45,779 nt of DNA from an uncultured Peptococcaceae bacterium (lineage in GTDB: Bacteria; Bacillota; Dehalobacteriia; UBA4068; UBA4997): NCBI GenBank assembly GCA_947625705.1, contig CANQPG010000008.1, forward strand, positions 1-45,779, read 5' to 3'. The notes under the pieces are model-generated. The model had not been told where the DNA came from. It saw nothing but the letters and a program-made list of their open reading frames with translations, and made no database searches. The position numbers and the translations under genes are program-made. This document shows, piece after piece, positions 37,613-43,078 of this stretch; within the stretch, counting starts at the first letter, position 1; each line of letters opens with the position of its first letter.

Positions 37613-37772
37613 GCAGGGCATTGATAAAACTTTCCGCTTCATGATCTGCGCAAATTACGCGGAAAGTATTATCAATACCCGCTGGAATAAGCATGGGCTC
37701 CGATAAAACTTTTCCACTTCATGACCTCCGCTTCGCTTCGCTAAATCAGTGGAAAAGTATTATCCGAGCCTG
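37613..37772. repeat. Palindromic element pair F (F1, F2)
   Basis: F1 (37613-37684) has arms CAGGGCATTGATAAAACTTT and AAAGTATTATCAATACCCGC; F2 (37693-37772) has arms GGGCTCCGATAA and TTATCCGAGCC. Both have the forward core; F2 has the long CCGCTTCGCTTCGCTAAAT version. They lie between tadA and the tRNA-Gln terminator; no gene was seen in 37585-37824. Confidence 0.85.
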
Positions 37773-37787
37773 CATAAGGGTTCAATA

Positions 37788-38123: not shown

Positions 38124-38768
38124 TCAGCCGCCCAGCGTCACGTCCTGCTGGTCATACCACTGCAAGGCCGCCTGCAAATGCTCCGGCTGGCAGTCCGGCC
38201 AGAGCGCCTCCACCACGAAAAAATCCGCATACACCGCCTGCACCGGCAGCAGCCCGGAAAGCCTGCGCATACCGCCCCAGCGCACCACCAGATCGATCCG
38301 CGACACGTCATGCGAGCGTAAGGCCGCACACAAACCGGGGCGCGTCGGGTTAGCCACATCAGAAAGCCCCGCCAGATCCCATTCCCAGCCGTAATTGACC
38401 AGAAAATTCAGGCGTATGCCGCCGCCCGCCACCCGCTGCCGCGTCTGATAGGGCAGAAGCTCCGACGGAAACTGAGGCGACGCGTAATTGCCCACCACCA
38501 AGAGGTCTGCCCCCTCACCGGAAAGCAGCCGCACGGCCTCCACACACGCGGCGGAGAAGCTATCCCGCTGGGCGCGCGGCCGCTTGCAGTTATCGGTGGT
38601 GAAGCCGTAAAACGTCAGCTCTTTCACGCCCGCCGCCTTGGCCTGGCGCAGCAGCTGCACCCCCGGCGCCAGCCCAAACTGATAGCCCTGCTCTCGCTTT
38701 AGCCCGTGGCGCTCCGCCCAGCGCCGGTTGCCGTCCGGTATCACTGCCAAATGCTCTGGCACCCGCAT
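38124..38768 (-). CDS. Divergent cis-prenyltransferase (UppS family)
   Basis: A 214-residue member of the undecaprenyl diphosphate synthase family, which chain-elongates isoprenoid diphosphates on the membrane face. The N-terminal catalytic motif PDGNRRWA (D12) is present, as are LTFYGFTTDN and the VVEALWPD end. The C-terminal motif, normally R-T-G-G-E, is RWGGM, so the Glu that helps bind magnesium in E. coli UppS is Met167. The protein is also shorter than standard UppS. It may be an inactive or altered paralogue; a canonical uppS is expected elsewhere. GGGGAGGG precedes the ATG. Confidence 0.75.
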   Translation of the reverse strand: MRVPEHLAVIPDGNRRWAERHGLKREQGYQFGLAPGVQLLRQAKAAGVKELTFYGFTTDNCKRPRAQRDSFSAACVEAVRLLSGEGADLLVVGNYASPQFPSELLPYQTRQRVAGGGIRLNFLVNYGWEWDLAGLSDVANPTRPGLCAALRSHDVSRIDLVVRWGGMRRLSGLLPVQAVYADFFVVEALWPDCQPEHLQAALQWYDQQDVTLGG

Positions 38769-38827
38769 GAAACGCCCTCCCCGCCTTGGATTTACACATT
38801 TTGCAGTTTGCCCCAAACGGAGAAAAA

Positions 38828-39038: not shown

Positions 39039-39061
39039 CTTTATACTATCACTTTATACTA
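39039..39061. promoter_or_regulatory. Direct repeat between divergent small genes, possible RHH operator
   Basis: CTTTATACTA occurs at 39039-39048 and again at 39052-39061, 13 bp start to start. On the minus strand each copy presents a TATAAAG box that could serve as the -10 region of the RHH gene. RHH proteins bind such tandem short sites as dimers of dimers. Confidence 0.5.
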
Positions 39062-39117: not shown

Positions 39118-39348
39118 ATGAAGCATGATGAAGATATTGAAAGAATGGCAAAACAAGCCTTTGAAACCTATCAATCTGACATAGTGCTGATTACGTATCG
39201 AAAATCGGAGCTTGCCAAGGATATTGGCAACATAAAAAACATTCTGAAAGATGAAAACTTGGATTACAGCGCACGTTGCTATCTGATAGAAATGATTATT
39301 GAAAAGATGGAAAAAGAGATAAATGTAAAAAACCGCGAAGATATTTAG
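39118..39348 (+). CDS. Small helical protein of unknown function
   Basis: A 76-residue, AT-rich-coded, highly charged protein ([20 protein letters not shown] ...), predicted to be largely helical, with no membrane segment, signal peptide or motif I recognise. AGAGGTG lies seven bases before the ATG, and a promoter-like TTGACT (39069-39074) with TAAAGT (39092-39097) precedes it. It is divergent from the RHH gene and its 3' end overlaps the last bases of thiC on the opposite strand by four bases. Confidence 0.5.
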
Positions 39349-40658
39349 TCTTTTTCCATCACGTCGACGGTTTCCCCCGCCAGCGCCTTGTTCATGTTGC
39401 GCACGGCGCACATTTTGCCGCACATGGTGCAGGTATCCTCGCAGGCGGGGGTAGACTCCGCCCGATAGCGCCGCGCCTTTTCCGGGTCAATGGCAAGGTT
39501 GAACTGCGCTTCCCAGTCCAGCTTTTGGCGGGCACGCGCCATCGCGTCGTCCCAGTTGCGCGCGCCGGGGATACCTTTCGCCAAATCGGCCGCGTGCGCC
39601 GCGATACGCGAGGCAATTATGCCCTCCTTAACGTCGGCCAGATCGGGCAGCCGCAAATGCTCCGCCGGGGTAACATAGCACAAAAAGGCTGCGCCGTTCG
39701 CCGCCGCCAGCGCCCCGCCGATGGCCGCCGTGATGTGGTCATAGCCGGGGGCAATGTCCGTCACCAGCGGCCCCAGCACATAAAAAGGCGCGCCGTGGCA
39801 GATCGTCTGCTGTATCTGCATATTGGCGGCGATCTGATCCAGCTGCATATGCCCCGGCCCCTCAATCATCACCTGCACGTCCTGCTCCCAGGCGCGGCGG
39901 GTCAGCTCGCCCAGCACGATAAGCTCCTCGATCTGCGCAATATCCCCCGCGTCGGCCACGCACCCCGGGCGGCAGGCGTCGCCGAGGCTCAAGGTCACGT
40001 CATATTCGCGGCAAATTTGCAGGATATCGTCGAAATGCGCAAAGAACGGATTTTCCTCGCCGGTGGCCGTCATCCACGCAAACATCAGGCTGCCCCCGCG
40101 TGAGACAATGTTCATCAGCCGCGGATTGGCGCGGAAGCGCGCCGCCGTCGCGCGGTTCATGCCGCAGTGTATCGTCATAAAATCCACGCCGTCCGCCGCG
40201 TGCATACGAAAAACGTCCAGCCACTCCTGCGCGGTGATCTCCGCCAGCGGCTTGTCATAGTAGACCAGCGCGTCATAGATCGGCACGGTGCCGAGAACCG
40301 CGGGACATTCCGCCGCCAGCCGCCGCCGAAATACCTTGGTGTCGCCGAAGCTGCTCAAATCCATGATGGCCTCGGCGCCCATATCGACGGCGCTCTGCAC
40401 CTTGGCCAGCTCCTGCTCCATATCCAGGCAGTCGCGCGAGGTGCCGAGGTTCACGTTGATCTTCGTCTTAAGCTGCCGCCCGATGGCAAAGGGGCGCAGG
40501 CATTTGTGGTTTTTGTTGGCCGGTATCACTGCCTGCCCCGCCGCCACCAGCCCGCGCAGCTCCTCCGCCGCGATGCCCTCATATTCGGCGCATTTGGCCA
40601 GCTCCGGCGTGATAACGCCCGCGCGCGCCGCCGCCATTTGTGTGGTATATTTTGTCAT
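39345..40658 (-). CDS. thiC: Phosphomethylpyrimidine synthase
   Basis: Radical-SAM enzyme converting aminoimidazole ribotide to the thiamine pyrimidine. The 437-residue protein is the short form without the N-terminal extension. Features: [49 protein letters not shown] and the C-terminal cluster motif [20 protein letters not shown] precedes the ATG. No other thiamine gene and no TPP riboswitch were seen nearby. The related BzaA/B/F enzymes, which make benzimidazole for cobamides, share this fold and cannot be fully excluded. Confidence 0.9.
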
Positions 40659-40710: not shown

Positions 40711-40790
40711 AGGGTATTGATAATTTTTTCCGCGAAATTTAGCGAAGCGAAGCGGAGGTCATGCAGCGGAAAAATTTATCAATGCCCGTC
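40711..40790. repeat. Palindromic element G1
   Basis: A single element with arms GGGTATTGATAATTTTTTCC and GGAAAAATTTATCAATGCCC and the reverse long core GCGAAGCGAAGCGGAGGTCATG. It lies between the thiC start and the radical SAM gene's 3' end. Confidence 0.85.
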
Positions 40791-40815: not shown

Positions 40816-41727
40816 CTAACTTTTTTTAGCAGGTAATCTTAATTTAAGTCCTGCAAGAATTGTATCGGGACGAAGTGTCAAAACGCTCCGCATTTCTCCC
40901 GCCATGCAGAAGCCGCACTCGTCGCAGACGCCCGCCGTTTTGCCGGCGCACTCGGCCAGGCGCGTGCCGTCCGCCAGAATAAAGTTCGACACCCAGCAAT
41001 CCTTGGGGAAATCGTTGGTTTTCATCAGCTTAAGCCCGGAAACGCTGTTCATGATCGGATAACCCCGCCGCTTATAGTCGATAATGGTATCCAGCAGCCG
41101 CACCCGCTCCGCCCACGGCAGCGCCATATGCTCCGTGCCCGCGTAGGGCGTGTGGAAATTCAGCGATATCTGCTCAATGGCCGGATTGTTTTTGGCATAT
41201 TCGATCGTCTCGGCCACCGAGGGCGCGTTCAGGCGGTTGATGGCCATGTTCACGCTCAAATGCGGCTGGTGCGATTCGGCAATATGCTGCTCCAGCCGGG
41301 CGAACGCCCCCTCGCCGCGGATCATGTCGTGATATTTGCCCACGCCGTCCAGGCTCACCCAAATGCTGTCGGCGTGCAGCCAGTCGATCGGCAGCTGCGC
41401 GTTGGTCGTCACCGTGCAGGAATAGAAGCCGATCTTTTTGGCCAGCGCCATCAAATCGTTCAAATTATAATCGCCGTCACGCCAGATCGTCGGCTCGCCG
41501 CCCTCAAAATCAATGAACCGCGAACCCAGGCCGTAGGCATACTCCATCTCCCCGGCAAGCTCCTCATAGGTGCGGCTGATACCCCCGGCATGGCCGCTCT
41601 CCGCGCAATGCTTGCAGCGCAGGTTGCAGATATTCGATACGAAAAGCACCGTTTGCAGCGGCCGCTTTTGCCCCAGCACCCGCGCCCGGAAGAACCACCA
41701 CGGCAGGTAAAATAACTGTTTCAGCAT
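40816..41727 (-). CDS. Radical SAM protein with C-terminal cysteine cluster
   Basis: A 303-residue radical SAM enzyme. The cluster motif is C34-x3-C38-x2-C41 (CNLRCKHC), followed by the GGEPT motif (FEGGEPTI). The C-terminal part has further cysteines (CWVSN; ECAG; CDECGFC), a SPASM/twitch-like arrangement for one or two auxiliary clusters. A hydrophobic N-terminus (LFYLPWWFF) may contact the membrane. It begins 24 bases after a UbiA prenyltransferase on the same strand and is probably co-transcribed. Substrate is not known; a prenyl or quinone-type lipid product is a guess from the neighbour. Confidence 0.8.
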   Translation of the reverse strand: MLKQLFYLPWWFFRARVLGQKRPLQTVLFVSNICNLRCKHCAESGHAGGISRTYEELAGEMEYAYGLGSRFIDFEGGEPTIWRDGDYNLNDLMALAKKIGFYSCTVTTNAQLPIDWLHADSIWVSLDGVGKYHDMIRGEGAFARLEQHIAESHQPHLSVNMAINRLNAPSVAETIEYAKNNPAIEQISLNFHTPYAGTEHMALPWAERVRLLDTIIDYKRRGYPIMNSVSGLKLMKTNDFPKDCWVSNFILADGTRLAECAGKTAGVCDECGFCMAGEMRSVLTLRPDTILAGLKLRLPAKKS

Positions 41728-41751
41728 AACGTCTCCTTACCTTATCATATA

Positions 41752-42774
41752 TCACGCCAAAAGCCCCGCCAGCAGGCACAAAACGGCAAACGCCGAAAGC
41801 AGGTTCCGCGCCAGAAACCACCGCAGCATGAACCAATCCAGCCCCGCCGCGCAGAGCTTCGGCCAATCGCCCATCGGGCCATACCAGAACAGGCGCCTCG
41901 GCCGCGCCCCCGGCTGCCGCAGAAACTGCCGAACGGAGCCGTAAAGCGCCGCGGCCAGGGGCAGCGTCAGCCACGTCAGCAGCCACCAGGGCGAAAGCCC
42001 CCACGCCAGCACAGCCAGCCCCACCAGCAGATATGGCAGAAAGCTGAACACCGCCGTCGCCATAAGCTGCCGCCCCGGCGTTTGCAGCAACGCCGCCAAA
42101 GTTCGCTTCCCGGCGAAAGCGTCCGCCTTGATATCCAGCACCGAGTGCGTATAAACGATGTTGGTCACTAAAAGACCCAGCGCCAGCCCCAGCGCCAGCG
42201 CCCGCCAGATATGCGCGCCGCCCGCCGCCAGATACACCCCCAGACCCAGCAGCGGCCCGAAGATAACGCCGATCGTCAGCTCGCCGAAACCGCGATAGCT
42301 CAAACGCAGCGGCTCACCGGAATACTCGATCCCCAGCAGCAGCCCCAGCGCCGCCGGCCAGACGATCGGCCAGCCCGCCGCCAGCCACACCAAAAGACCG
42401 CATAACGCCGCCGCCCCGCCGAAGCCGAGGCAGGCCAAAAGCAGCTCATCAAGCGTCGCCGCGCCCGATGTGATATACGCGCATTTGGCAGTGCGGGCGC
42501 GCTCGCCCTTTTTTGCCAGATCGCTGCGGAAGCCGCTGCCGATCTTCTTATAATCAAAGTAATCGTCAAACAAATTGAGGCTTAAATGCGCCAGCTCCGC
42601 CCCCAGAATGGCCAGCAGGCCGATAAGCGGAGCAAACCCCGCCTCGCCCGCGGCCAGCGCATAAGCCGCCAGCGCGGGCAGCAGGCTTTGCGGCAGCGAT
42701 ACCGGCCGGGCATTGTGATACCAAAACTTGAGGCGCGCCCAAACACCGCGCCGCTTTTCACCCGTCACCTGCAT
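41752..42774 (-). CDS. UbiA-family membrane prenyltransferase
   Basis: A 340-residue integral membrane protein with eight or nine hydrophobic segments. The first Asp-rich motif is NLFDDYFDYKKIGS (N67, D70, D71, D74); the second is SVLDIKADAFAGKRT. This places it in the UbiA/MenA superfamily, which attaches polyprenyl chains to aromatic acceptors or makes related lipids. No menaquinone genes are nearby, so MenA identity is not established. GAGGGGG precedes the ATG, and a promoter with a palindromic operator lies at 42822-42849. Confidence 0.82.
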   Translation of the reverse strand: MQVTGEKRRGVWARLKFWYHNARPVSLPQSLLPALAAYALAAGEAGFAPLIGLLAILGAELAHLSLNLFDDYFDYKKIGSGFRSDLAKKGERARTAKCAYITSGAATLDELLLACLGFGGAAALCGLLVWLAAGWPIVWPAALGLLLGIEYSGEPLRLSYRGFGELTIGVIFGPLLGLGVYLAAGGAHIWRALALGLALGLLVTNIVYTHSVLDIKADAFAGKRTLAALLQTPGRQLMATAVFSFLPYLLVGLAVLAWGLSPWWLLTWLTLPLAAALYGSVRQFLRQPGARPRRLFWYGPMGDWPKLCAAGLDWFMLRWFLARNLLSAFAVLCLLAGLLA

Positions 42775-42821
42775 CGAACCGCCCCCTCGCCCAAAATTTT
42801 GCTTGGCTTTTGCCTCGCTTC

Positions 42822-42849
42822 GTTATACTATATTATTATAGTATGTCAA
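42822..42849 (-). promoter_or_regulatory. Promoter of the UbiA-radical SAM operon with internal palindrome
   Basis: TTGACA (42844-42849) and TATAAC (42822-42827) on the minus strand, 16-base spacer. The 20-bp palindrome ATACTATA-4-TATAGTAT at 42825-42844 fills the spacer, so a dimeric regulator bound here would block RNA polymerase. Confidence 0.65.
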
Positions 42850-42893
42850 CAGGACGCCGTCAAGCGAACAAGCACGCCAAACCGCCCCATTCA

Positions 42894-43078
42894 GCGGGTA
42901 TTGCTAATACTTTCCGCGAAATTTAGTGCAGCGAAGCGGAACTCATGTAGCGAAAAGTTTTATCAATGGCCGGCTTGTGAAGTGTTTTTGTCTCCAGCGG
43001 GCTCGGATAATACTTTTCCACTGATTTAGCGAAGCGAAGCGGAGGTCATGAAGTGGAAAAGTATTATCGGAGCCCCGC
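42894..43078. repeat. Palindromic element pair H (H1, H2)
   Basis: H1 (42894-42975) has arms GCGGGTATTGCTAATACTTT and AAAGTTTTATCAATGGCCGG; H2 (42997-43078) has arms GCGGGCTCGGATAATACTTTT and AAAAGTATTATCGGAGCCCC. Both have the reverse long core. The gap 42775-43158 otherwise holds only the UbiA promoter and the sigma gene's ribosome site. Confidence 0.85.

Follow-up and report, generated by a model that had tools for sequence, protein, structure and literature searches.

A UbiA–radical SAM gene pair spread among anaerobic, mostly gut, bacteria without known vitamin-K-like quinone routes may build or recycle such a quinone

The futalosine pathway to menaquinone uses radical SAM enzymes (MqnE and MqnC), and MenG converts demethylmenaquinone to menaquinone. 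A survey of gut genomes describes MqnP as the UbiA-type prenyltransferase of the futalosine pathway and notes genomes in which quinone-dependent reductases occur without any quinone pathway (PMC4746308), and a further study describes multiple genomes with neither menaquinone pathway (PMC13386864). The word 'radical' is absent from the main text of the former and 'radical SAM' from the main text of the latter. Quinones are described as growth factors for gut isolates, with a specificity that differs among DHNA, MK-4 and menadione (PMC5738691). According to a report on vitamin K remodelling in the mouse gut, the whole side chain is replaced on a preserved naphthoquinone ring by enzymes that are unidentified, with MenA proposed as the prenyltransferase; the same report states that UBIAD1 prenylates menadione, and that human stool in vitro used and prenylated menadione and did not remove side chains (PMC7928036). 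Searching titles and abstract openings in the open-licence literature, we found no paper naming the gene pair described here.

We analysed a 45,779-nucleotide stretch of DNA from an uncultured Peptococcaceae bacterium (the window), in which a gene for a UbiA-superfamily prenyltransferase is followed after 24 nt by a gene for a radical SAM protein (rSAM), both on the minus strand (Table 1). Matches to PF01040 and PF04055 confirmed this arrangement, which the initial annotation had noted together with an absence of menaquinone, ubiquinone and haem genes nearby. No men, ubi or haem gene was found among the neighbours tested, and a profile search showed that menD and MqnA/D are missing from the window's genome as a whole too. 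The neighbouring thiC was ruled out as a third partner, as it adjoins the module within the genus only: it lies next to rSAM or one small open reading frame away in seven of nine genus loci, and its cluster in the wider neighbour survey comprised five loci, every one from the genus. The best model for its product was ThiC; the BzaB model gave 517 bits (cut-off 700).

Table 1 Coordinates and supporting matches of the features at the locus
Feature	Position in window	Strand	Details
UbiA-superfamily prenyltransferase, MenA/UBIAD1-like	41752-42774	-	340 aa; PF01040 80.6 bits (cut-off 34.2)
Radical SAM protein (rSAM)	40816-41727	-	303 aa; PF04055 47.2 bits (cut-off 29.5)
Predicted sigma-70 promoter TTGACG-17-TATAAT of the UbiA-rSAM operon	42835-42863	-	11/12 consensus matches
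20-bp inverted repeat ATACTATA-N4-TATAGTAT, across the -10 box	42825-42844		expected by chance 0.01
ThiC (phosphomethylpyrimidine synthase)	39345-40658	-	157 nt 3' of rSAM; NF009895 650 bits (cut-off 410)
REP-like repeats	37616-37680, 37695-37773, 40712-40788, 42896-42972, 42999-43075	both orientations	

Several other elements were observed around the pair. Imperfect palindromic, REP-like repeats of about 65-79 nt lie in the intergenic regions in both orientations, and the copies at 37695-37773 and 42997-43075 are 97% complementary. A diverged cis-prenyltransferase (UppS-like; 38124-38816, minus strand) lies 0.5 kb 3' of thiC, before two tRNA genes; it matched PF01255 with 120 bits and fell under every UppS cut-off among the matches listed, and could be a second prenyl-chain enzyme. 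Rfam searches near the locus returned the two tRNAs and no other RNA family.

The 20-bp palindrome described in the initial annotation is present and above chance, with one perfect match and one three-mismatch match (at 39043) compared with 0.01 expected. It had been read as an operator that exactly fills the promoter spacer, placing the pair under specific repression. However, a better promoter, TTGACG-17-TATAAT, puts the palindrome over the -10 box. The same boxes with the same spacing were found 5' of UbiA in four further loci (L031, L032, L033 and L036) and not in L034 or L005; at L035 just 52 nt lie upstream of UbiA. We predict that this is the promoter of the pair; it is conserved in the genus. 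Among the genus relatives with enough upstream sequence, a similar palindrome (18 bp) was kept only in the nearest relative, L031, and none was found in L032, L033 or L036. Because the palindrome overlaps the -10 box and a similar repeat occurs only in L031, we rejected the spacer-filling operator, and specific repression is unsupported.

We next consider how far the pair is conserved. A scan for the rSAM family in one genome per bacterial or archaeal species returned 156 relatives, from which the best 80 (55-93% identity) were kept. UbiA lies directly 5' of rSAM in 67 of these 80 loci. The initial annotation had stated that its reading would fall if rSAM occurred mostly in unrelated contexts, and this is not the case. 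A UbiA of the same clade is located elsewhere in the genome for eight loci (L062, L064, L074, L079, L082, L084, L094 and L103), two loci are cut by a contig end (L037 and L055), and no pair-type UbiA was found in three of the 80 rSAM genomes (L058, L072 and L106). The annotation had proposed a survey of the pair and its possible third partners; the pair proved to be conserved far beyond the genus with no general third partner, as clustering of the neighbours within 9 kb showed no third protein family that recurs outside close relatives. By the labels of their records, the carriers belong to Bacillota, Bacteroidota, Coriobacteria, Deltaproteobacteria and Betaproteobacteria, with one Kapaibacterium, and many come from mammal or bird guts or faeces and one from a lake; many of the remaining carriers, judging from isolate names, are presumably from termite guts or digesters. 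Three loci labelled Ruminococcus flavefaciens, Bacteroides sp. and Lentimicrobiaceae (L102, L105 and L107) have UbiAs that are 81-95% identical and share neighbouring genes, and at least one of these taxon labels is probably wrong.

The two proteins are inherited together. Across 64 linked pairs, UbiA and rSAM distances correlated with r = 0.82 in a mirror-tree comparison, compared with a maximum of 0.11 in 999 permutations; the trees left out L037, L043, L047, L055, L067 and L086, which are cut, short or contain N. Among 198 Bacteroidales genomes, nine contain an rSAM orthologue (more than 490 bits), and eight of these nine, and no other of the 198, contain a pair-type UbiA (435-490 bits; next score 174). 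One genome (G086) has the rSAM orthologue without a pair-type UbiA, and in two (G170 and G196) both genes are there and not adjacent. Seven more Bacteroidales have weaker rSAM relatives (211-246 bits), which we counted as a different subfamily; three of these seven have MqnA/D. The pair is a mobile two-gene module that has spread horizontally.

The window UbiA has the UbiA domain with aspartate-rich motifs that is looked for in MenA. Residues N67, D70, D74, H210 and D218 are invariant in all 52 aligned sequences (52 of 68, with near-duplicates and fragments left out), as are W314, F315, R318, W319 and N324 in a clade-specific C-terminal helix. The corresponding motif, W(F/Y/L)xxRWxx(A/S)R(N/S), occurs in 71 of 72 pair-type UbiAs and in none of 21 others. 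The 72 pair-type UbiAs, whether linked or unlinked, group in a single clade (support 0.73); 19 further UbiAs from these genomes, as well as E. coli MenA and UbiA, fall outside it. The window protein was matched by ten MenA-type or related models, none over its cut-off; the best NCBIfam models were MenA models (best 110.7 bits against a cut-off of 264; TIGR00751, 56.8 against 102.15), and the pair-type UbiA of Odoribacter laneus was likewise under every MenA cut-off. Models for geranylgeranylglycerol-phosphate transferase, 4-hydroxybenzoate transferase and haem O synthase gave no match at E 1e-3. In PDB searches with the AlphaFold2 model (pLDDT 93.9), the highest TM score was to human UBIAD1 (8djk_B; 0.66 by query and 0.78 by target, 19% identity), with other UbiA structures close behind. 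Judged by its sequence, the pair-type UbiA is a MenA/UBIAD1-like clade and is not MenA by curated criteria.

The additional C-terminal cysteines of rSAM, which had been noted from the window protein, are genuine. The CX3CX2C motif (C34, C38 and C41) and five C-terminal cysteines (C244-x15-C260-x7-C268-x2-C271-x2-C274) are invariant in 62 of 62 aligned orthologues (62 of 81 sequences, that is, 80 loci and the window, with near-duplicates and fragments left out). This combination is one expected of SPASM/twitch enzymes and suggests a putative auxiliary cluster; no SPASM Pfam model matched, and the twitch model NF033640 gave 45.5 bits against a cut-off of 170. The AlphaFold2 model (pLDDT 92.4) has a hydrophobic N-terminal helix (residues 2-16), which suggests membrane contact, and rSAM is probably membrane-associated. 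The nearest curated model was PTO1314 (TIGR03961), with 57.9 bits for the window protein and 57.9-69.5 in the family; at a cut-off of 306, rSAM does not belong to PTO1314, for which a literature search found nothing useful. Neither is it the adenosyl-hopene transferase HpnH (TIGR03470, 24.1 bits, cut-off 225), and the MqnE and MqnC models were absent among the 25 listed of 28 NCBIfam matches. GDGT-MAS was one of two PDB sequence matches. Foldseek and VIA-align searches with the rSAM model returned many generic radical SAM folds with unrelated reactions, giving no assignment.

Two groups of more distant rSAM relatives were also seen. Three genus genomes have a paralogue that is 31-33% identical (L028:1480-2382, L029:1213-2115 and L030:1432-2334), each time directly 5' of another radical SAM protein; the one that was scanned, at L028, is HemN/HemW/HutW-like, under all cut-offs. 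Relatives with 32-33% identity in other genomes of the phylum (L010, L011 and L012) score higher than the window protein against the PTO1314 model (119-144 bits, cut-off 306), and we take their neighbours to be argJ/argB-like or ruvC-like genes.

The carriers lack the known routes to menaquinone. Gene-family searches covered 36 chosen carriers (28 from the survey loci and eight from the genus, with G007 left out) and, together with the nine Bacteroidales, two of which are common to both sets, 43 different carriers in all; most are draft metagenome-assembled genomes, and related genomes are not independent. menD was found over its cut-off in none of the 36 carriers, compared with seven of 14 controls. 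MqnA/D matches occurred in three of the 36 and scored just 25.6-35.6 bits, compared with 130-263 bits for the Bacteroidales matches printed, so that both menD and a convincing MqnA/D are absent from all 43 carriers tested. Of the 198 Bacteroidales, 72 have menD (71 over the cut-off), 82 have MqnA/D and two have both, leaving 152 genomes with a known route and 46 without. The module rSAM occurs in nine of the 46 genomes without a route and in none of the 152 with one (Fisher p 1.0e-6, uncorrected for kinship and therefore overstating independence, because the genomes are related). The initial annotation had said that clear orthology of UbiA to MenA, with the other men genes elsewhere, would speak against it; with UbiA under the MenA cut-offs and menD over its cut-off in none of the 43 carriers, we rejected an ordinary MenA.

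MenG/UbiE was over its cut-off in 11 of the 43 carriers and in none of the eight genus genomes, of which one (G003) had a match under the cut-off. Such rarity would be expected of a nucleus that comes with its methyl group in place, or of a product that MenG does not methylate. Two carriers, Odoribacter laneus (L117) and the Coriobacteriales genome of L045 (L139), have a canonical MenA (TIGR00751 over the cut-off) besides the module, and MenG. In O. laneus the canonical MenA lies beside MenG (G065:C1:1549675-1551207), with no menD over the cut-off, an apparent remnant of DHNA salvage alongside the module. Salvage of DHNA would therefore already be covered in these two genomes, and the module may make something else there. 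The family Odoribacteraceae is described as containing MK-9 and MK-10, a statement made for the family and not for O. laneus itself (PMC5167729); a search for quinone data on that species found none.

Many carriers nevertheless keep enzymes that depend on quinones. Each of the eight genus genomes searched has one UbiA-superfamily match and a match to b558-type SdhC, five over the cut-off and three under it at 77-94 bits. In the window's own genome the SdhC (92.9 bits, cut-off 96) is followed by a flavoprotein and then an Fe-S subunit, in an SdhC-SdhA-SdhB-like operon whose latter two products are 35.9% and 25.9% identical to E. coli FrdA and FrdB. That genome lacks MenG, and the module UbiA is its sole UbiA. 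Ten of the 36 carriers have CydA, among them Deltaproteobacteria bacterium Smac51 (L075), whose genome is complete; none of the eight genus genomes has it. As a marker in Bacteroidales, b558 SdhC failed to separate carriers from non-carriers: it occurs in 179 of the 198 genomes and, among the 46 without a route, in seven of nine carriers as against 28 of 37 non-carriers. Its presence does not follow that of the module, which is therefore at most one of several solutions.

These results support and strengthen the proposal of the initial annotation that a prenylation and a radical modification are combined in a two-enzyme module, perhaps with a quinone-like product, leaving aside its specific repression. 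The quinone-like product gains strength because the pair is conserved far beyond the genus, in genomes without known routes, many of which keep quinone-dependent enzymes; the chemistry is still something that we infer. The explanation that we favour, although we give it slightly less than an even chance, is that a horizontally spread module supplies a respiratory, menaquinone-like quinone to anaerobes without a known route, most likely from a salvaged nucleus. UbiA would provide an aromatic or quinone nucleus with a polyprenyl chain made by the cell itself, and rSAM would act either before UbiA, freeing or preparing the nucleus, or after it, finishing the prenylated product. The nucleus would most likely come from the microbial community or the diet, as a compound of the menadione or DHNA type or as a foreign menaquinone that is given a new tail. 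The pairing, the co-inheritance, the lack of menD and of a convincing MqnA/D, and the quinone-dependent enzymes of many carriers are observed; a quinone as product, salvage as the source of its nucleus, and the timing and kind of radical step are what we infer here.

The conservation of just two genes, the lack of MenG in most carriers and the wide transfer of the module in dense anaerobic communities lead us to prefer salvage to synthesis de novo. It is unlikely, in our estimate, that rSAM makes the aromatic ring out of a common metabolite, in the manner of MqnE and MqnC in the futalosine route, with UbiA prenylating it and housekeeping enzymes doing the rest. Such a route would fit the same absence of men and mqn genes and the same pairing, as well as a window genome with a single UbiA and a quinone-linked dehydrogenase operon, and the 2016 survey mentions alternative pathways as something that could account for genomes with reductases and no route (PMC4746308). 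However, it would have to run on just two conserved genes with no recurring third partner, MqnE and MqnC models were not among the NCBIfam matches to rSAM listed, and wide transfer among host-associated and anaerobic communities would fit salvage better.

Somewhat less doubtful, though still rather unlikely, is a prenylated membrane lipid or cofactor that carries no electrons, for example a radical-modified isoprenoid ether or phenol, with the absent routes reflecting a shared fermentative anaerobic lifestyle. The weak matches of the rSAM family include HpnH and Tes models, which cover proteins acting on isoprenoid lipids, the PDB match to GDGT-MAS points the same way, and in Bacteroidales b558 SdhC occurs irrespective of the module. 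By contrast, UbiA scores with MenA models and not with those for geranylgeranylglycerol-phosphate or 4-hydroxybenzoate transferases or haem O synthase at E 1e-3, and the module is sharply excluded where a known route exists (0 of 152 genomes). It is very improbable that UbiA is no more than a divergent MenA acting on DHNA taken up from outside, with rSAM an unrelated neighbour or one with a minor role. MenA models are indeed its best curated matches, and DHNA is documented as a growth factor for gut isolates (PMC5738691), but an unrelated neighbour would not be co-inherited so closely (r 0.82, with both genes kept when non-adjacent), MenG is absent over the cut-off in 32 of 43 carriers, and some carriers also hold a canonical MenA.

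Considered more broadly, salvage and synthesis de novo could both fall under a third bacterial way to menaquinone-type quinones, in which rSAM would free or reshape an imported ring or make a new one and UbiA would add the tail. We regard this as possible, with the balance leaning against it; if true, it would partly resolve a long-noted paradox, that of anaerobes with quinone-dependent reductases and no pathway. The module is a concrete two-gene candidate in genomes of that kind and also a concrete candidate for the unidentified enzymes of side-chain replacement in gut vitamin K. Because a named gut species, O. laneus (L052), is a carrier, both questions are directly testable. The pair thus links many unrelated anaerobic, mostly gut, bacteria without known routes to vitamin-K-like quinones, and may build or recycle such a quinone in them.

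Similar to MenA (TIGR00751 and PRK06080 models), which provides its best curated matches, the module UbiA keeps the aspartate-rich motifs; it differs in scoring far under the cut-offs, in being carried by genomes without menD and in having an rSAM partner, and E. coli MenA is without the C-terminal signature of the pair-type UbiA. UBIAD1, the human menaquinone-4 synthase (8djk), has the highest TM score to the module UbiA among solved structures, whereas it is eukaryotic and only 19% identical, and we know of no radical SAM partner for it. The futalosine pathway (MqnA-MqnE and MqnP) likewise makes menaquinone with radical SAM enzymes and a prenyltransferase of the UbiA type, but the carriers have no convincing MqnA or MqnD, and MqnC and MqnE are not among the rSAM matches listed. 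PTO1314 and HpnH resemble rSAM as its nearest curated model and a weaker one, with scores far under their cut-offs (57.9 of 306 and 24.1 of 225 bits). Unlike the module, gut vitamin K remodelling (PMC7928036) is not known to include a radical SAM step. By the sequence tests made, the module is a UbiA prenylation module with an rSAM partner that lies outside the MenA, PTO1314 and HpnH families.
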